Origin: Acholeplasmatales bacterium DTU067
GTDB taxonomy: Bacteria; Bacillota_I; Bacilli_A; ML615J-28; CAG-698
DNA: 44,395 nt
Assembly (NCBI GenBank): GCA_001512995.1
Contig: LFRY01000065.1
Span: 23,324-67,718 of the forward strand
Direction of reading: 5' to 3'
The position numbers and the translations under genes are program-made. Each line of letters begins with the position of its first letter. The first letter of the stretch is position 1. Shown piece by piece: positions 1,524-12,614 of the stretch. The notes under the pieces are model-generated. The model did not search any database and had not been told where the DNA came from. It worked only from the letters and a program-made list of their open reading frames with translations.

Positions 1524-3335
1524 TTAAATTCTTGTGTCAATGAAACCGCAGAAAGCATCGACCGGCGAAGTTCCTTTAAATTCAGATTTTCCGGCCAGTT
1601 TATCTATCAGGGCATCGATAGTTGTCTCATCGGCATCATAGCAGTTGATGTAGTTTTTGACTTGCGGAACATCCGCCAAGTGAAAGGGGCAGGCAAAGGA
1701 AACGAAAATCGTCGGTATGTCGTTGACATACCAGGGGTTGTCCCATCCGCCTTTGGAAATCGCCCATTCAAGCCTCTGCACGGTTTTCATGGTCGATGTG
1801 ACATTGGCAACCGAGAGAACCAAATCGAAATTTTCGGTCAATGCCCTAATCGGTTGTTTCATACCATAAGCGCCCTTCGATTTTCTCGACTTTTTCGCGA
1901 TCCTCCGCAAAATCAACTTCATGAGCCATTTGGGCGCTTTTTTCATTCTCTCAAGGTTTTTCTTGATGGGATCGACATAGACGTTTACGGTTAAGCCCCT
2001 CGCTTCCAGTTTTTCTTTAAGCTGTTTGACATATTGCGACCCGTCAACTCCCATTCCCGCCAGACTGAGCATGGAATCGGGTTCCGGACCGACGGGAACC
2101 AGCAATATCCGCTTGTATCTTTCCGGAGTCACTGGAAACACTTCTTCTTCAATGCTCTTCACCAGCGTGATCGCTTTGTCGGAAACTTCCTGGGTAATCT
2201 TTTTATATTCCGGCTTTCCGACAACCGCAAGCCCGCTAAAGGGGGGGAATTTGTCGATTGAAAAATTGGCCAGTCCTGCTGCTGCTTTCAGCCCCAAAAT
2301 TCTTTGCAGGGCTTCATGCAATCTTTCTTCAGTGATGATTCCGTTCAGATATCCATTTTTCATGAACTCAAAATCCTCATCCGGATCATTATAAAACAAG
2401 AACATGTCGCAGCCCGCCTGAATCGCGCGCGGAACCAGTTCGCTTCTCTTCATCCTGCCCGCGACTCCCACCATGTGCGATGCATCGGACACAATCAGGC
2501 CGTTGAACCCGAGTTTTCCCCGCAACAAATCGGTAAGGATTTCTTTGCACAGGGTCGCCGGCAACAAATCCCTGTCTTCAATTTCAGGATTGAAATATTT
2601 CTGATAAGCGGGAAGCATGATGTGACCAGGCATGACGGAATGAATTCCCGCCTCAATCATTCCCCTGTACACATATCCGTAGGTTCTATCCCATTCTTCA
2701 ACGGAAAGGGGATTGGTGCTCGAAGAAACATGGGGATCGCGTTCATCCGCTCCGTCTCCGGGAAAATGCTTCATTGCACAAACCATTCCCGCGTCCGTCA
2801 TTCCCCGAAAATATTCTTTGGAAAACTCCAATACCAATTCCGGATCACTGCCCCAGCCCCTAGTTGATATTCCTGGGTTGTGCCAATCGAGAACCAGATC
2901 GGTGATTGGAGCGAAGGCCCAATTGCAACCTACGGCTTTTGCTTCTATGCCGGATATCAAACCGAGCTGATAAGCCAATTTTTTATCGCGCGTCGCGGCG
3001 ATCTTCATTTCATTTCCGATGTAAGTTCCGCTTTTTGTGGCACCGATACCGCCGGACTCTGTGTTCACTGCGGAAAGAACGGGGATTTTTGAATGTTTCT
3101 GATAATTATAATTCATTTCCCAAATCGCTTCTTTTTCCAAGGGATTGAAGCGGATTCCGCCCATGTTGCGGCATTCCCTGATTTCCGATTTCACATCTTC
3201 TTCTTCAACTGCAGCCGTGAAATGCACAAAGAGCTGCCCGATTTTCTCATCAAGGGTCATTTTGCTAATCGTGTCATTGACCCATTTGATTTGTTCATCG
3301 TTCAGATAAAAGGGTTTTGCTTTTAAATCTACCAT
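1524..3335 (-). CDS. Glycoside hydrolase family 3 (NagZ-like beta-N-acetylglucosaminidase or beta-glucosidase)
   Basis: About 603 residues. The GH3 barrel carries KHFPGDG (about 189-195) followed by a D-P-H element (D200, H202), which resembles the acid/base loop of NagZ-type enzymes (KHFPGHG...DSH), and IVSDASH with the probable nucleophile Asp284. A C-terminal alpha/beta sandwich follows. No signal peptide is present, so it is cytosolic and would cleave an imported oligosaccharide. I chose the ATG at 3335 rather than the one 9 bases upstream because AGAGG lies 8 bases before it and directly abuts the earlier ATG. It overlaps the ATPase gene upstream and is the last gene of the ABC operon. 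The Asp-His pair favours N-acetylhexosaminidase chemistry, but the substrate is not certain. Confidence 0.88.
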
Positions 3336-4554
3336 TTCTACCATCCTCTTCTATTTTTGTTGGCACCAAATTTACTTCTTTTTCCTTATCAAAAAGATGC
3401 ATCACTTCCCTGTCAAAAGTGAATTCAACGGAGCCGTTTTTCTCAAGGTTTAGTCGATCCTGTTTTGATAGTTCAATGGTTTGAACGCGGATAACTAATT
3501 TTTGATTGTTTTCTGTTTTTACGTGCAAATGCAATTCGCTTCCCATCATTTCGGAAACAATGACATTGGCTTTGAAATACTGCACTCCCTTTTGTTTCGG
3601 GAAGTTTTCTCTAACGATTTTGATGTGTTCCGGCCTGATGCCAAGAACGATTTCTTTTCTTCCGAGATTGATTTTATCAAAGTGTTCGGAGACATCGTCC
3701 CGCACCTCTAAATGCCGGTTTTCGAAGAACACCCGGTATTTTCCGTCTATTTTCTCGATTACGGCATCAAAGAAATTCATTTGCGGCGTGCCGATGAACC
3801 CGGCAACAAATAAATTAGCCGGATGGTCAAACACTTCCGAAGGCGTACCGATTTGTTGGATGAATCCGTCCTTCATGACTACTATCCGATCGCCGAGTGT
3901 CATCGCTTCGACTTGGTCATGGGTAACATAAACGAAAGTCGTATTGATTTTCTTTCTGAGCAGCAAAATTTCGCTGCGCATCTGATTCCGTAATTTCGCG
4001 TCCAAATTAGAAAGGGGCTCGTCCATTAAGAAAACCTTCGGTTTCCTTACGATTGCCCTGCCAATGGCAACTCTTTGTCTCTGACCGCCGGAGAGTTGCC
4101 TTGGCTTCCTGTCAAGATATTCTTCAATTTCAAGAATTCTTGCCGCTTCCAAAACTTTTTCCCAAATTTCTTCCTTCGTATATTTCCTTTTAATTACAAC
4201 TTCTTTTCCGTTCTTGCCCTGTTTCACTTCTTTGACCCTGGACATTTTTAATCCGAAGGCCATGTTTTTGAAGACGGTCATGTGCGGATAGAGGGCGTAG
4301 TTTTGAAAAACCATGGCGATGTTTCTGTCCTTCGGTTCAACATCATTGCATCTCACACCGTCTATGTAGAGATTGCCGTAAGAAATTTCCTCGAGCCCGG
4401 CAATCATTCTTAGGGTGGTCGATTTCCCACAACCCGAAGGGCCGACCAAAACAATGAATTCTTTTTCCTTTATTTCAAGGTTAAAATCGGCAACCGCAGG
4501 AACATCGCTTTTTTCGTAGAATTTATAAATATTTTTCAGTGTTACGTATGCCAT
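3295..4554 (-). CDS. Sugar ABC transporter ATPase, MsmK/UgpC/MalK type
   Basis: A 419-residue ATPase. Walker [10 protein letters not shown] lies at 38-46, the Q-loop at about Q84, the ABC signature LSGGQ at 154-158, Walker B VFLMDEP at about 174-180, and the H-loop in [19 protein letters not shown]-terminal TOBE/OB regulatory region (about 240-400) is typical of CUT1 importers. Residues about 105-125 form a lysine-rich insertion ([14 protein letters not shown]) before the helical domain. Start follows AGGTGA. It probably powers the LplB/LplC-type permeases of this operon and could also serve other CUT1 systems, as MsmX does in Bacillus. The long C-terminus overlaps the GH3 start by 41 bases. 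Confidence 0.93.
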
Positions 4555-4562
4555 AATTCACC

Positions 4563-5444
4563 TCAGAGAATTTCCTTTCCTTCTTCTTTTATCAAGCCCT
4601 TGCGATAAAGCTGAGGGACGTTGGTTTTATTAAACTGTTCATCAAGCAAATTGAAACTGTACAAAAAGAAGATCAGCATGAGAAATGGGATTAGAAATGT
4701 AGAAACCAACCGCAGGATGGTTGAAATCCAAAAATTCTCGACAAATCCGAAAAAGAAAGGGATCAACAATAACGCGGAAACGCCAAGGGTTTTGAGGATG
4801 CTTCTTCCGTACAGCAGCGTGGACATTTTTAAATTAGTCGTATAACTGTTGTCGTAAACCGGGATGCAGACCGTCATGAAGAAACCGATGGGCCCCAGGA
4901 TTACGGAAAGCAACACGCTTGGAACCCTTCCCAGGACAAAGAATAAATTTCCTTCCAAAAAAGAGGAAAGATTCAGAGCATATTCGGAAGCCAACCGCAA
5001 AATTGCATATGTCATACCGATGAGGATGAATTGCGGCGAGTTTTGCTTTATCCCTTTCGGAAAATCATATTTGAAATACACATTCTCCAAGAATCCATAC
5101 CGCTTGATAATCCTCGCCATTCCGGATAGGCCGACAAAGAACAGCACAATCAGCGGAACGTCAATTAAAGCCGTTGTGATTTTATTTCCCGCGATGCTGG
5201 CTGTGACTTGATTTATCTCCTCAGCCGTTGAAGCCTCAGTGATGGTGCTTTTTAAACCAAGAATGTAAGCATCGCTTGCCAATCTATTGAAGAAAATGGG
5301 GAGATAAAACAGCAGGATTATCAAACCATAGAACAAGAATTTTACAAAATGTAAATTCATTACGTCCCAAAAAACTTCGGTTCTAGTTTTTGGAAGCGAG
5401 GATTCTTGGAAATCCTCTTTCGCAAGTTTCGGTTTAAACAGCAT
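4563..5444 (-). CDS. Polytopic membrane protein of the sugar ABC operon, unknown function
   Basis: About 293 residues with roughly six hydrophobic segments (around residues 35-55, 95-115, 140-160, 170-200, 225-245 and 250-275) and charged ends. I do not recognise the family with certainty. Its place in a sugar ABC operon recalls YesL/DUF624 proteins, but it is longer and I see no clear motif. An in-frame GTG lies 9 bases upstream; the ATG at 5444 is preferred because GGGTGA stands 6 bases before it. It overlaps the upstream membrane-anchored protein gene by 11 bases and stops 8 bases before msmK-type ATPase, so it is tightly co-expressed. It could be a permease-associated or sensor subunit. 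Confidence 0.7.
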   Translation of the reverse strand: MLFKPKLAKEDFQESSLPKTRTEVFWDVMNLHFVKFLFYGLIILLFYLPIFFNRLASDAYILGLKSTITEASTAEEINQVTASIAGNKITTALIDVPLIVLFFVGLSGMARIIKRYGFLENVYFKYDFPKGIKQNSPQFILIGMTYAILRLASEYALNLSSFLEGNLFFVLGRVPSVLLSVILGPIGFFMTVCIPVYDNSYTTNLKMSTLLYGRSILKTLGVSALLLIPFFFGFVENFWISTILRLVSTFLIPFLMLIFFLYSFNLLDEQFNKTNVPQLYRKGLIKEEGKEIL

Positions 5445-6039
5445 TTCTTTCACCCAGGAATTTTTCCAAAAAATTTATTAATTCTTTGTCATCAACGGAG
5501 CCCTTACCGTTGATGGCCATGAAATTTTTGGTTTCCGGCGATACAAAAATTACTAATTCCGGTTTTTCTTCAACAAAATCATACAGCTCTGACTTTTTGG
5601 GGACTAGAAATCCGTATGCCGAACCTTCCTCTAGATAATAGGTTTGCGGTCCAAGCAAAGAGTCCATTTGTTCTTGGTCGAGAGGATGGAAGTATTGCCG
5701 ACCGATGTTTCCCGGCATTAAAGTTTTTTCAATAATGATTAAATCAAATTCGCCCTGCGAGGTCACATAGAGATTCGTGTTGATCACATATTCATTTATG
5801 GTTTGCATCCACACGGCATTCACTTGCAGGATTTTCTCGTTTGATACAATGCTTTTTGCGTACTCTGCAAATCCTTTGTCGTCAAAGGCCTCGCAAAAAA
5901 TCGCGATGTTGATTCTCTCATTTGCTTTGGGTTCGGACAAGGTTTTGAAAGCGAAATTCCAGATGAGCACCGATAAAACGGCGATGGCAAGATAGACAGT
6001 CCAATTGTAAATAAAATGGTTTTTCAATTTACTTTTCAT
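5434..6039 (-). CDS. Membrane-anchored extracellular protein, unknown function
   Basis: A 201-residue protein with a basic N-terminus, one transmembrane segment (about residues 12-30, VYLAIAVLSVLIWNFAF) and an extracytoplasmic domain of about 165 residues. The domain has alternating strands and helices (INIAIFCEAF, FDLIIIEKT, YGFLVPKK, LVIFVSPE) that resemble a minimal periplasmic-binding-protein lobe, although I cannot assign a family. A longer frame exists, but the ATG at 6039 is chosen because GGAGAT stands 6 bases upstream and the extra N-terminal part would lie inside the preceding gene. It overlaps both neighbours by 11 bases, so it is translationally coupled within the ABC operon. Confidence 0.68.
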   Translation of the reverse strand: MKSKLKNHFIYNWTVYLAIAVLSVLIWNFAFKTLSEPKANERINIAIFCEAFDDKGFAEYAKSIVSNEKILQVNAVWMQTINEYVINTNLYVTSQGEFDLIIIEKTLMPGNIGRQYFHPLDQEQMDSLLGPQTYYLEEGSAYGFLVPKKSELYDFVEEKPELVIFVSPETKNFMAINGKGSVDDKELINFLEKFLGERNAV

Positions 6040-6496
6040 CAATGATCTCCAAAACCAGCCCTTCGTTTGCTTTAAAATGCAATTGCTTTCCTTCTGAAAT
6101 ATCATGAGCAAAAGGTAAATAGAAACGCCTAACATTGCCATCAATGACCGCAAGCACCCTTATACAATCAACTTTTAAATATCTTTCAGTGTGTTCTCTT
6201 ATTTCAATGATTTTTCCCCGAAACTCCTCCGCTTCGGCATGGAGCTTTTCATACAGAGCGTATCTTTGTTTCTGAGAAAGATAAAAGAAAGAATAAAGGA
6301 AGTAGGCAATGGAGAAAAAGACAATGTCTGCCATTGAGTTAACGAGAACGAAAAAAGCCACATTTTTCCTGTTAAAGAGGAAAATGAGGGCAATGTTGAT
6401 TGCAATCGCCACAAAAATCAGCGTAAAGATGATTGAAACCAGTTTTCTTAATTTTTTCTGAAATTGATCTTTTGTGGTTCCTAGAATCGTCATCAT
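6029..6496 (-). CDS. Two-TM membrane protein with soluble C-terminal domain, unknown function
   Basis: A 155-residue protein. Two hydrophobic hairpin segments (about residues 20-42 and 47-72) are followed by a charged helix (about 75-100) and a small beta-rich C-terminal domain (about 105-155, with YLKVDCIRVLAVIDG and FYLPFAHDI). It is unrecognised. Its start overlaps the stop of the preceding ATPase gene in an ATGA arrangement, and its stop overlaps the next gene by 11 bases. This shows strict coupling with the ATPase and the membrane-anchored protein, so the three plus the 293-residue protein may form one accessory complex. Confidence 0.68.
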   Translation of the reverse strand: MMTILGTTKDQFQKKLRKLVSIIFTLIFVAIAINIALIFLFNRKNVAFFVLVNSMADIVFFSIAYFLYSFFYLSQKQRYALYEKLHAEAEEFRGKIIEIREHTERYLKVDCIRVLAVIDGNVRRFYLPFAHDISEGKQLHFKANEGLVLEIIDEK

Positions 6497-7215
6497 CTGC
6501 TTAAAAAACTCCTCACAAAAGCTTTGTCGCTATTTTCGATTTCTTCTTTTGTGCCGATCGCTTCCAATTCTCCTCCGTTCAGAACCGCTATTTTTTCTCC
6601 CAAAATGAAAGCATCGGTCAAATCATGGGTAGCGTATATGATGGTCGGCTTGAACTCTTGGTGGATATTTTTCAAAGTCAGCCGCAGCTCATTCTTGAGG
6701 GTCGGTTCGAGATTGGAAAAGGGTTCATCAAACAGCATAATCCGCGGGTTTTTTACAAGGGCACGCGCGATCGCGACTCTTTGCATTTGTCCATAGGACA
6801 GTTGCCTGGGCTTTCTGGAAGCAAGAAAATCAATTTTCAAATAATCGAGAACGGTTTTGACCCTCAGATCGATTTCCTGGAAATCGGTCCGCATTCTCCG
6901 CAAGGGAAAAGCAACATTCTCATATACCGTCATGTGCGGATACAGGCTGTATTCTTGGGACAGGTAGGAAATGTTTGCTTCCTTTTTTTTGATGTTTTCG
7001 ACGCTCGTTCCATTTATGATGAGCAAGCCGTCCGTCAATTCGACTCCGCCGAGAATTGCTTTAAGCAAGGTTGTTTTTCCTGAGCCGCTCGGACCGACCA
7101 CAACAAAGAATGATTCGCTCGGAATTTCGAGAGTTATTTTGTTTAAGGAAAGAACATATTTTTTCTTCTTCAGTTTATAGTAAGCAGAAAAATCCTGGAA
7201 ACTGATCTTCGCCAT
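6493..7215 (-). CDS. Second ABC ATPase of the operon, short form without TOBE domain
   Basis: A 240-residue ATPase. Walker A GPSGSGKTT is at 41-49, the Q-loop glutamine at 87, Walker B IMLFDEP at about 159-165, and the H-loop in IYATHDLTDAF. The signature is LSYGQ (139-143) rather than LSGGQ. The protein ends right after the catalytic core, unlike the MsmK-type ATPase of the same operon. It is followed directly by three unrecognised membrane genes, so it may serve them rather than the LplB/LplC permeases. The core motifs needed for ATP hydrolysis are present. SD is AAGGAA. Confidence 0.88.
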   Translation of the reverse strand: MAKISFQDFSAYYKLKKKKYVLSLNKITLEIPSESFFVVVGPSGSGKTTLLKAILGGVELTDGLLIINGTSVENIKKKEANISYLSQEYSLYPHMTVYENVAFPLRRMRTDFQEIDLRVKTVLDYLKIDFLASRKPRQLSYGQMQRVAIARALVKNPRIMLFDEPFSNLEPTLKNELRLTLKNIHQEFKPTIIYATHDLTDAFILGEKIAVLNGGELEAIGTKEEIENSDKAFVRSFLSR

Positions 7216-7216
7216 T

Positions 7217-8188
7217 TTATTCCTTCACACCGCCAATGATGACGCCCTTTTCGATATATTTCAAAAATAAGGGAAATAAAAGGAGAACGGGTAAACTTGC
7301 AATCAAAATTACGCAGTATTGCAACAAGTATTTATTGTAATCGGGGTTGGCAGCCTGTAGGAAGGATGAAGGTTGGTTTTGAGCCAAAATTTCTTTGATC
7401 CAGAGCTGAATTGGCCAAAGGTTTCTCTTGGTCGGAACGTAAATCGATGCCGGATACCAAGAATTCCAATGAAGAATGACTGTGTTTAAAATAATGACCG
7501 TAGCTATGCTCAAAGATTGGGGTAGGACAACCTGGAACATGATTGTGAAATGGCCGGCGCCGTCGATTTCGGCGGCTTCAATGGTAGATTCCGGAACGTT
7601 TCTAAAAGCATTGGCCATGATGACCATGAAAATTCCCGATGTGCAGCCGGGTATGATCAATGCCCAGCGCGTTCCGACCATTCCCAATGCCTTAATGACC
7701 ATATAGGTGGGAATCAAGCCGCCGTGAAACATCAATGTCAGAACCAGCATTAATGCCAAAGGTCTTGAAAGCATGGATTTTCTGCTGATTGTATAGCCGC
7801 CAATAACATTTAAGACAAAACCTAAAGTTGTGGAACCGGCCACATAAATGAATGTGTTTAAAAAACCGCTCCAAATCCCTCTGTTTCTGAACAATAATTT
7901 ATAGCCACCCCAGTTGAACATTGATTCCGCACCACTATCCTGGATGGGCCACCACACAATTCCTTTTTTGAAAAGGAGAATGCTTCCGTCGGATAATGAT
8001 GAGGTTAGCACATGCCACATGGGAACGATGCAGATCAGAATGATGATTGCCATGAAAGCATAGAGTATGACGGTGTATAAAACACCAAGCCAACTCTTAT
8101 GTTCAACCATTCCTCCGTGGTATTTATTTGATCGTTTTTCCGGCGGAATATAGTGCTCTTCCCGAGCTTTAACTAAAATTTCATGCAT
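7217..8188 (-). CDS. Carbohydrate ABC transporter permease, LplC/YtcP type
   Basis: About 323 residues and six predicted membrane segments, with the CUT1 permease EAA loop (TIEAAEIDGAGHFTIMFQVV, about 195-215). The N-terminal cytoplasmic extension (KAREEHYIPPEKR) and the C-terminal EKGVIIGGVKE are typical of LplC-type permeases that pair with LplB and a large LplA-type binding protein. A GTG lies 9 bases upstream in frame; the ATG at 8188 is preferred because AGGAG lies about 8 bases before it. It forms the membrane channel together with the LplB-type gene 11 bases upstream. Confidence 0.93.
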   Translation of the reverse strand: MHEILVKAREEHYIPPEKRSNKYHGGMVEHKSWLGVLYTVILYAFMAIIILICIVPMWHVLTSSLSDGSILLFKKGIVWWPIQDSGAESMFNWGGYKLLFRNRGIWSGFLNTFIYVAGSTTLGFVLNVIGGYTISRKSMLSRPLALMLVLTLMFHGGLIPTYMVIKALGMVGTRWALIIPGCTSGIFMVIMANAFRNVPESTIEAAEIDGAGHFTIMFQVVLPQSLSIATVIILNTVILHWNSWYPASIYVPTKRNLWPIQLWIKEILAQNQPSSFLQAANPDYNKYLLQYCVILIASLPVLLLFPLFLKYIEKGVIIGGVKE

Positions 8189-8199
8189 ACTCTCCACTC

Positions 8200-9186
8200 C
8201 TAAAACAGTGATGATTTGGTAATCTTTCTGTTAAGATAATTGGATATGATCAATAGTGTGGTAGCGATGGCCGATTGAAACAAACCGGCAGCGGTGGACA
8301 CTCCGTAGTCGGCCGAGCCAGCGAAGGCAATGCGATAGATATAGGTGGTGAGGCAGTCAGCCGTAGAATAAATCGACGGTGAATAAAGCAGCAACACCTT
8401 ATCAAAACCTTGCAGGAATACCGTTCCGATTCTCAAGGTCAACATTGTGACAACCAACGGAATGATTGACGGAATCGAGACATGCCACATCCGCTTCCAT
8501 TCGCCAGCTCCGTCAATGGCGGCAGCTTCATGCAAATTGGGATTGACATTTGCGATTGCCGCACAGTAGATTATTGCTCCGTATCCGAAACCGACCCAGA
8601 TGTCGATTGCAGTATTGATGAGCCAAAACACGGGAACTTTATTATTTGCCAACCAGTTTTGGTTTCTAAAACCAAACCAGGAAAGGAAGTTGGCAATGAC
8701 TCCGCCTTCATCCAGAAATTCTTTCCACAGGGCAACCACAACCACCGTGGAAATGAAATAGGGAATGTATGAACTGATTTGAATTACTCGCTTATACCGT
8801 TTATGTCTGATTGTTGACAAAAGCAGGGCAAATATGACTGGAACGATGAAACCAACCGTCAAATTAAGCAATGCCATTCCGGCAGTGTTCCTAAGGACGA
8901 TTCCGAAATTATCCCGGAAAAACAAGGTTTTGAAGTTGGCGAAATTATTGAAAGAACTGCCGAAAACACCCTTTAAAACATTGAAATCCTGAAAAGCCAT
9001 GACCAAACCAAACAAGGGGGCATAATTGAAAAGCAATACATAAAGGAGCACGGGTAAAAAGATTACATAAACGACCCAATTCTTTTTCAGGTCTTTTTTT
9101 AATCTTTTGCCGAACGATAATTTCGGTATTGAATGAATTAATCTTGCTTGTTTGGCTTGGAATTCTGTGTTCGGTTTCTGAACCAT
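8200..9186 (-). CDS. Carbohydrate ABC transporter permease, LplB type
   Basis: A 328-residue, six-segment permease. The basic N-terminus GKRLKKDLKKNWVVYVIFLP and the EAA loop (LHEAAAIDGAGEWKRMWHVS, about 215-235) mark the LplB family of CUT1 importers. The C-terminus (NRKITKSSLF) is typical. Start is ATG at 9186 with CAGGAGG 6 bases upstream. The intergenic region to the binding-protein gene contains a perfect 11-bp hairpin that may lower permease expression relative to the binding protein. Confidence 0.94.
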   Translation of the reverse strand: MVQKPNTEFQAKQARLIHSIPKLSFGKRLKKDLKKNWVVYVIFLPVLLYVLLFNYAPLFGLVMAFQDFNVLKGVFGSSFNNFANFKTLFFRDNFGIVLRNTAGMALLNLTVGFIVPVIFALLLSTIRHKRYKRVIQISSYIPYFISTVVVVALWKEFLDEGGVIANFLSWFGFRNQNWLANNKVPVFWLINTAIDIWVGFGYGAIIYCAAIANVNPNLHEAAAIDGAGEWKRMWHVSIPSIIPLVVTMLTLRIGTVFLQGFDKVLLLYSPSIYSTADCLTTYIYRIAFAGSADYGVSTAAGLFQSAIATTLLIISNYLNRKITKSSLF

Positions 9187-11142: not shown

Positions 11143-12576
11143 TCATTCCATTGCCATAAGATCTGCGACTATCGATGCGTCGCAAGAGAAGGGAACCGGA
11201 TAACCGCCCATGGAAATTGAAACCTTCAATTTCCCAGCCTGCAAATCCTCGCCAGAGGAAGTTGCGCTTTCGCCATTAATCTCGACCGTCAATTGGTAGT
11301 TGGCAAAGGACCAAGTTCCAGTGGATAAAGCTTCCCCGTTCTCGACGATGGCGCAGCTATGGTCATCATAGAGAACGAGAACAGCTTCAACCTGAGGATA
11401 CTCACATTCGAGTGTCGCGACCTCTTGGGGGCCTTCAGGAACGGCATTCAAGTCTCCTACAACAGTGGCAGGAGCGGTAAATTCCAATGAAACAGTATCA
11501 GTTAGGGGGAGAGTGATACTTAAAACTCCTTCTGCCAATTTTCCAATGTCGCTGTAGGCAGGTTCAAAACCTTCAATGGTTATGGTGAGCGTGTAAGTGG
11601 CCATCGACCATGACCAGGTGCCGAATAAAGAACCTTCAATGCTGCAGGTGTGGTCATTGTAGAGTTCGCACTTTTGTCCATGTGCGGTTGTCAGGGTTGC
11701 AACCAATTTTTCATTGGGTTCCGCATATACCACGCATTCGATCGTTACTTCATCGTCTTCATATACGGCTGTCTGCCCGTCTTCGCCGATTCTGAAAGTT
11801 CCTCCTTTGGACAAAACATAAACGCCGTCTTCTATCGTATAGGTGCCGTTTACTTCTTTAACTCCCAAGGCATTCTTGTAACCATTATGATAAATCGTGA
11901 ATGTCAATTCGGTTTGCTCAAATTCATCCGCAAGCTCTTCGGGAACCTCTTTGATCATGAATTTAAACAGAACGATCGGTTCTTCATCTTCTTCGCTCCA
12001 GTAATACTCGGGATCGTGTTTGACTGTTCTTGTTGTCTGCCCGATTTTCAACATATGGATGTATCCCTCAGTCCAGGCAACATAACAGGAGTCAATGCCC
12101 TCGTTCAAGGTTGATTGCCCCTCATAATTATCGTTCCTCATGTCTTGCATTACGGAGCCATCCAAATGATAGAACTTGATGGCCTTGGAGGAAATTAAAA
12201 CTTCAACGGAATCCCCGTCTGCTTCAGAGTCCTCCGCTTCCGGGTTTTCCCAGTTTCCGTTCGTTCCCGCAAGGCGGTACTCAATCTCCATGTCGACAAC
12301 TTCATATTTTCCGGCTATCACATCGCCATACAAGCCGATAGCATAAAAAGTGCCGTCAGTCTTGAATTTGATCAATTGCTTTCTGTCATATCCGGGAACA
12401 CCCACATAAAAAACTCCGTCCGTCAGTTCTGCCGTTTCGGTTTCATCGGGATCCTCACCATTTTCCGGTCCATTTGGTCTTTCATCATCCTTACATGCAG
12501 TCAGCGTCAAAAAAAGGCTAAATGTAAGCGCGCACAGAAAAAACGTTTTCAAAAAGTGAACAAAATATCTCTTCAT
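11143..12576 (-). CDS. Repeat-containing surface lipoprotein, first gene of the sugar operon
   Basis: 477 residues with a signal peptide and lipobox LTAC (Cys28), then an acidic linker (ERPNGPENGEDPDETE). The remainder is beta-rich. Two C-terminal units are clearly related: ELYNDHTCSIEG...GTWSWSMATYTLTI (about 300-335) and VLYDDHSCAIVE...GTWSFANYQLTV (about 390-425). Each is followed by a hydrophobic strand region and a final VV/IVADL motif. No known family is recognised. As the first gene of the ABC operon it may bind glycan at the surface and feed the LplA-type protein. The ATG at 12576 is chosen over one 12 bases upstream because GGAGG lies just before it. Confidence 0.82.
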   Translation of the reverse strand: MKRYFVHFLKTFFLCALTFSLFLTLTACKDDERPNGPENGEDPDETETAELTDGVFYVGVPGYDRKQLIKFKTDGTFYAIGLYGDVIAGKYEVVDMEIEYRLAGTNGNWENPEAEDSEADGDSVEVLISSKAIKFYHLDGSVMQDMRNDNYEGQSTLNEGIDSCYVAWTEGYIHMLKIGQTTRTVKHDPEYYWSEEDEEPIVLFKFMIKEVPEELADEFEQTELTFTIYHNGYKNALGVKEVNGTYTIEDGVYVLSKGGTFRIGEDGQTAVYEDDEVTIECVVYAEPNEKLVATLTTAHGQKCELYNDHTCSIEGSLFGTWSWSMATYTLTITIEGFEPAYSDIGKLAEGVLSITLPLTDTVSLEFTAPATVVGDLNAVPEGPQEVATLECEYPQVEAVLVLYDDHSCAIVENGEALSTGTWSFANYQLTVEINGESATSSGEDLQAGKLKVSISMGGYPVPFSCDASIVADLMAME

Positions 12577-12614
12577 TTTTCCTCCCATTTTTTTATTTCT
12601 CCTCCCATTTTTTT
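12575..12614 (-). repeat. Tandem 20-bp duplication spanning the lipoprotein ribosome binding site
   Basis: Two adjacent 20-base copies (12575-12594 and 12595-12614) differ by one base. Each contains ATGGGAGG on the minus strand. The downstream copy supplies the SD of the lipoprotein gene; the upstream copy places a second SD-like GGAGG in the leader. Confidence 0.9.

Follow-up and report, generated by a model that had tools for sequence, protein, structure and literature searches.

Analysis of a 44,395-nucleotide stretch of DNA (the window) from the 1.47-Mb draft genome of Acholeplasmatales bacterium DTU067 supports the view that four adjacent genes within a sugar ABC importer operon, coding for a short ATPase and for proteins with two (TM2), one (TM1) and six (TM6) transmembrane segments, make up a genuine unit that recurs and is linked to sugar uptake. 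With a probability of roughly 0.55, this cassette is an elaborated YesL/MusI-type accessory complex of an LplABC-type oligosaccharide importer, which has acquired an ATPase of its own. No description of the four-gene cassette as a unit was found in the literature searched; DUF624/YesL and MusI are already known families, the mechanism of which is little or not known.

Organization of the Importer Locus

All four cassette ORFs are open on the minus strand and lie consecutively after the gene of the LplC-type permease, followed by that of the MsmK-type ATPase (Table 1). The LplC gene ends one base ahead of the short ATPase start, the short ATPase and TM2 genes overlap by 4 bases (ATGA), the TM2/TM1 and TM1/TM6 pairs by 11 bases each, and the MsmK gene starts 8 bases past the six-TM gene. 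A GTG at 5453 is also a possible start of TM6; the relatives start at MFK... This layout, with its overlaps and the presence of MsmK, had been described in a first-pass annotation of the same DNA and is borne out by the ORF coordinates and the Pfam/NCBIfam domains. The second ATPase, described there as carrying LSYGQ and lacking TOBE, indeed matches ABC_tran alone in Pfam, its best score placing it in the MalK/UgpC kind; MsmK has OB_MalK and TOBE_2. The topologies claimed agree with the AlphaFold2 models of TM1 and TM6 and, for the two-TM count, with hydropathy read by eye.

Table 1. Importer operon and cassette features in the window.
Feature	Position	Strand	Evidence
Putative LplA-type binding lipoprotein, 628 aa	9243..11129	-	Lipoprotein signal, size and position only
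LplB-type permease	8200..9186	-	BPD_transp_1, 3.4e-13
LplC-type permease	7217..8197	-	BPD_transp_1, 3.5e-9
Short (second) ATPase, 240 aa, MalK/UgpC-like NBD without OB/TOBE	6493..7215	-	ABC_tran, 3e-33; clade separate from MsmK
Ser86 at MalK F81/MsmX F82 position, coupling-helix pocket, just before Q-loop Gln	6958..6960	-	Phe lost in 17/19 short ATPases
Altered ABC signature LSYGQ, residues 139-143	6787..6801	-	First Gly replaced in 10/19 short ATPases, 0/26 MsmK
Two-TM protein (TM2), 155 aa, cytoplasmic C-terminal domain	6029..6496	-	30-member family within same cassette
One-TM protein (TM1), 201 aa, extracellular SBP-lobe-like domain	5434..6039	-	AlphaFold2, pLDDT 88; Foldseek
Six-TM protein (TM6), 293 aa, divergent DUF624/YesL-MusI homologue	4563..5444	-	hhalign, NCBIfam, AlphaFold2
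MsmK/UgpC-type ATPase with OB_MalK and TOBE_2, presumed LplBC motor	3295..4554	-	UgpC subfamily, 443 bits (cut-off 432)
Glycoside hydrolase, GH3-like by eye	1524..3344	-

Pfam and NCBIfam searches gave no confident match for the three cassette membrane proteins of the window, and nothing significant for the 628-aa putative LplA-type lipoprotein. At the operon head lies a 481-aa lipoprotein (window 11143-12588), whose weak GH43_C lipocalin-like match (E 0.0018) is below the cut-off.

Recurrence of the Cassette

The cassette or parts of it were found at 43 loci, in rumen and gut Bacilli and in two Clostridia-type MAGs. The first-pass annotation had suggested looking for the same four-gene set in other genomes, and had counted absence elsewhere, together with clear DUF624/YesL homology of the 293-residue protein, against its own proposal; the families recur at all these loci and are neither a one-off nor a product of chance. 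When an alignment was used to scan GTDB contigs, 17 loci came up, belonging to Bacilli of the rumen and gut and to two records with Clostridia/Oscillospiraceae in the title; a direct single-protein scan of genome contigs gave no match, the cassette loci surfacing with the alignment query only. Of about 395 Bacilli genomes covered by profile searches, 19 gave matches to the one-TM protein and 21 to the six-TM protein, a few of the matches being weak; the four weakest six-TM matches are frames of about 220 aa, and both of the two that were checked are DUF624 proteins.

An ATPase gene lies within three genes of TM6 at 38 of the 43 six-TM loci, and the TM2/TM1 pair is present at 30, mostly with short overlaps. 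The order of the genes is variable (short ATPase-TM2-TM1-TM6, TM6-short ATPase-TM2-TM1 or short ATPase-TM6-TM2-TM1), and the genes are kept together. MsmK without a short ATPase is found nearby at 19 loci and neither ATPase at five, so the short ATPase is dispensable to the TM6 family, 24 members of which are without it. At loci with TM6 but without the short ATPase (L031, L117, L116, L136, L138 and others), MsmK is often 600-830 aa long, with a C-terminal extension of at least 250 aa past TOBE that gave no Pfam match. The possibility that the MsmK of about 630 aa is a fusion of MsmK and the short ATPase was rejected, as it contains a single ABC_tran stretch, and the remainder resembles additional OB-like repeats by eye.

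Elsewhere in the genome of the window, contig C81 has another complete cassette, and contig C55 a remnant of a six-TM gene. In the remnant (L139:631-1041, about 22 kb from the window start), a 136-aa frame corresponds to the C-terminal third of the six-TM protein, and the upstream part was not recognised. Cassette copies are also carried by genomes of the same genus. In one of these, an in-frame stop splits a six-TM gene (L012:1317-2195), intact copies being present elsewhere. At L015 (7929-8555 and 8907-9782), a truncated, rearranged MsmK-like ATPase frame precedes the six-TM gene. The largest set was found in a 1.7-Mb genome of rumen Bacilli (G529; L164-L175), which has 11 full six-TM copies and one fragment. 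This set is a large paralogous expansion, with an LplB permease of its own for each full copy. The window copy adjoins loci L023 and L024 in both the six-TM and the ATPase trees; since it is closer to these Clostridia-type records than to its own genus, the tree positions suggest horizontal transfer of the operon.

Linkage to LplB-Type Importers

In nine genomes, 27 out of 30 TM6 copies are located within 14 kb of an LplB permease, compared with 6.4 expected from the genome share within 14 kb of LplB matches (threshold of at least about 60 bits). This corresponds to a P of about 4e-16, a value for which the 14-kb distance was picked after seeing the data, and contig ends and the clustering of sugar genes were disregarded. 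At 6 kb, eight of the 30 copies are near LplB (2.8 expected). In G529, every full TM6 copy (11/11) is within 11 kb of an LplB-type permease. The cassette loci are glycan-use loci, judging by neighbours that include sugar kinases, regulators of the LacI and GntR types and GH2, GH20, GH30 and GH32 enzymes. Among 24 short loci (about 3 kb) with a classical DUF624 gene in relatives, at least 9 have this gene next to LplB/LplC.

The Six-TM Protein and the DUF624/YesL and MusI Families

A TM6 profile aligned to DUF624 proteins of related genomes with an hhalign probability of 99.1% (E 1.3e-17, 223 columns). In the controls, TM6 gave 0.3% with both LplB and LplC, while LplB and LplC gave 99.8% with each other. 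Pfam DUF624 (PF04854) matches six out of 36 TM6 relatives weakly (best 1.6e-4); the TM6 of the window has no PF04854 match, its gathering score (24.2 bits) not being reached. Judged by sequence, TM6 is a remote DUF624/YesL homologue that falls outside the family by the curated cut-off. The DUF624/YesL homology that the first-pass annotation had weighed against its proposal is hence present in remote form. NCBIfam MusI_fam (NF052431) matches half of the TM6 set (18/36; best 2.8e-9, far below the 160-bit cut-off) and does not match the TM6 of the window; DUF624 proteins match it with values of up to 3.7e-24, also below the cut-off. On these scores TM6 is not an established MusI member.

TM6 resembles DUF624/YesL in homology over most of its length and in its position beside LplB/LplC-type permeases. 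It differs in size (about 290 aa, with conserved additional N- and C-terminal parts, as opposed to about 215 aa) and in company, as DUF624 loci are seen without the ATPase or the one-TM and two-TM partners. A functional study of DUF624 was not found among the PMC papers naming DUF624, and a search for the YesL family gave a transcriptome table. MusI, the membrane protein of the maltose importer MusEFGK2I of Corynebacterium glutamicum, is likewise an additional membrane protein of a CUT1 importer. Henrich et al. (2013), a study cited in PMC10101108, are said to have found that it is needed for maltose uptake. Unlike the cassette, MusI is not known to come with a second ATPase.

The AlphaFold2 model of TM6 consists of six long helices (pLDDT 88). 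Foldseek revealed neither a close solved relative nor an ABC permease fold, and its best matches, at E 0.09 (Pns1, choline transporter-like), were set aside as too weak. TM6 as a hidden LplB/LplC permease was rejected, considering the lack of a Pfam match and of a Foldseek permease and the hhalign value given above. Conservation peaks in parts that are predicted, from the model and the charges, to be cytoplasmic; the conserved sites are LP..R near the N-terminus, E..DF..GIK.N between helices 2 and 3, Y200, N210 and the C-terminal FD..N....P....KG.

The One-TM and Two-TM Proteins

In the AlphaFold2 model, TM1 has one long N-terminal helix followed by an alpha/beta ectodomain. The leading Foldseek matches in the PDB are nearly all ABC binding proteins, maltodextrin-binding proteins first, and the agreement is moderate (E 1.1e-3, probability up to 1.00, about 116 aligned columns, TM-score 0.3-0.4 by query length). 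By eye, the order of the strands agrees with that of the N-terminal SBP lobe. With moderate confidence, the modelled ectodomain is folded like a single lobe of a sugar-binding protein. It differs from Type II-like sugar-binding proteins, such as the maltodextrin-binding protein, in being a single lobe rather than a two-lobed fold, and in its N-terminal TM anchor. Since sequence comparison with the PDB and with the SBPs of the same loci found no similarity, the likeness is one of fold alone, and descent from a binding protein is unsupported. The three membrane proteins had been called unknown in the first-pass annotation, which is too strong, given the remote DUF624/YesL homology of TM6 and the SBP-lobe fold of TM1. 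TM2 has no confident Pfam match; all members of its family were found in the cassette context.

The Short ATPase Compared with MsmK

With 41-46% NBD identity to MsmK, the short ATPase resembles the MsmX/MsmK/UgpC multitask ATPases. It differs from them by the missing OB/TOBE part, the changed signature, the loss of the pocket Phe and its placement in a separate clade. The window copy keeps GPSGSGKTT (Walker A), DEP (Walker B Glu) and THD (H-loop His), and the Walker B Glu and H-loop His, like the LYP..T.f.N part of the coupling region, are retained across the short ATPases. In MalK, the Phe opens the region that receives the EAA coupling helix (PMC7658222). This residue is kept in 26/26 MsmK and lost in nearly all of the short ATPases (Table 1). 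MVFQ precedes the Q-loop in the same 26 MsmK, while its Met is changed to Tyr in 14 of 19 short ATPases; the MsmK of the window keeps both MVFQ and LSGGQ. The changed coupling pocket, as read from the alignments, argues against a pairing of the short ATPase with LplBC. The altered signature that had drawn attention to this protein is present here, and loss of the first Gly is common in the clade, but the paralogue in the same genome and a same-genus copy have LSGGQ.

The short ATPases are separate from MsmK, unrelated outliers aside, in a tree built from 47 ATPases. The 24 TM6 proteins that accompany a main-clade short ATPase form one clade in the six-TM tree (support 98/93), and the two short ATPases that keep the Phe (L134, L135) fall outside the main clade, as do their six-TM proteins. 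Because the clades match in the two trees, the short ATPase and TM6 are inherited together. A mirror-tree comparison of 24 loci gave r 0.59 (p 0.001) for TM6 and the short ATPase; at the 12 loci with a readable LplC, these two were uncorrelated and TM6 and LplC were weakly correlated (r 0.37, p 0.03). The mirror-tree contrast between the cassette and LplC, clear with unequal locus sets, was gone on equal sets and was not used.

Proposed Role and Alternative Explanations

Under the accessory-complex reading, the four gene products would form one membrane complex serving the neighbouring LplABC-type importer, of which MsmK would remain the motor. TM6, DUF624/MusI-like and with its conserved residues presumably facing the cytoplasm, would be the core. 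The short ATPase may dock on TM6 and not on the coupling helices of LplB/LplC, its docking site having possibly been remodelled to fit the helper, and would drive or gate the core. TM2 would connect the parts, and TM1 would hold its SBP-like lobe outside the membrane near the LplBC mouth, where it could assist in the seating, loading or release of the true binding protein; the core, moved by ATP, could in turn shift the tethered lobe at the importer mouth. The cassette as a whole would affect sugar uptake. As for its origin, on the simplest reading a YesL/MusI-type helper of LplBC may have gained TM2 and TM1, and one clade a dedicated ATPase. A bolder form, which we consider tentative, is a two-motor sugar importer, in which an MsmK-driven LplBC is joined by a separately powered complex (a YesL/MusI-like core, a membrane-tethered binding-protein lobe and a two-TM linker) that acts from outside on the binding protein or the entry gate and has been replicated once per importer in gut Bacilli.

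The first-pass annotation had thought of an undescribed transporter, sensor or export system tied to sugar uptake. A recurring, LplB-linked unit for which the searched literature gave no description agrees with this in part; the close LplB linkage favours an importer accessory over an independent exporter. On another reading, a TM6 dimer would be the transmembrane domain, the short ATPase the motor and the TM1 lobe a tethered receptor of an ABC system in its own right, moving a second compound, in or out, that is needed on the same glycan, for instance a signal or a side product. The possession of an ATPase with an altered coupling pocket would suit such a system, as would the cassettes at L118, a separate transcription unit opposite LplBC, and at L113, a stand-alone unit. 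It is nevertheless unlikely, considering not only the linkage but also the homology of TM6 to DUF624/MusI, which are known solely in association with importers, the many TM6 copies without a short ATPase, and the absence of an ABC permease fold among the Foldseek matches of TM6.

It may also be asked whether the short ATPase replaces one MsmK subunit. LplBC would then run on a heterodimer of MsmK and the short ATPase in which one site is degenerate, with the three membrane proteins as YesL-type helpers. An operon that holds both ATPases is present here and at L114, L125, L028 and L024, the altered signature of 10/19 short ATPases would make one composite site degenerate, and the LYP..T.f.N portion is retained. 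The loss of the coupling-helix-pocket Phe in 17/19, the several short-ATPase loci without MsmK nearby and the co-inheritance of the short ATPase with TM6 all speak against it and make this arrangement quite improbable. By analogy with the BceAB-type ABC sensors, the tethered lobe, which has no second lobe of its own, might instead read importer activity or extracellular sugar and signal to a regulator. Regulators of the LacI, ROK or GntR types are found near several copies, GntR and LacI types adjoining some; they vary by locus, however, and the cassette has neither a sensor kinase nor a regulator of its own conserved beside it, so that a flux sensor seems very improbable.

In the usual view of carbohydrate ABC importers, one binding protein, two permeases and an ATPase shared with other systems suffice. 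The examples of YesL/DUF624 and MusI show that many such importers have an additional membrane protein. To a protein of this type, the cassette adds an ATPase dedicated to it and a lobe that is tethered and resembles a binding protein, and many copies of the cassette stand beside glycan importers in rumen Bacilli. The ATPase partner offers a testable biochemical handle on DUF624/MusI, and the cassette suggests that there are importers with a second energised part.
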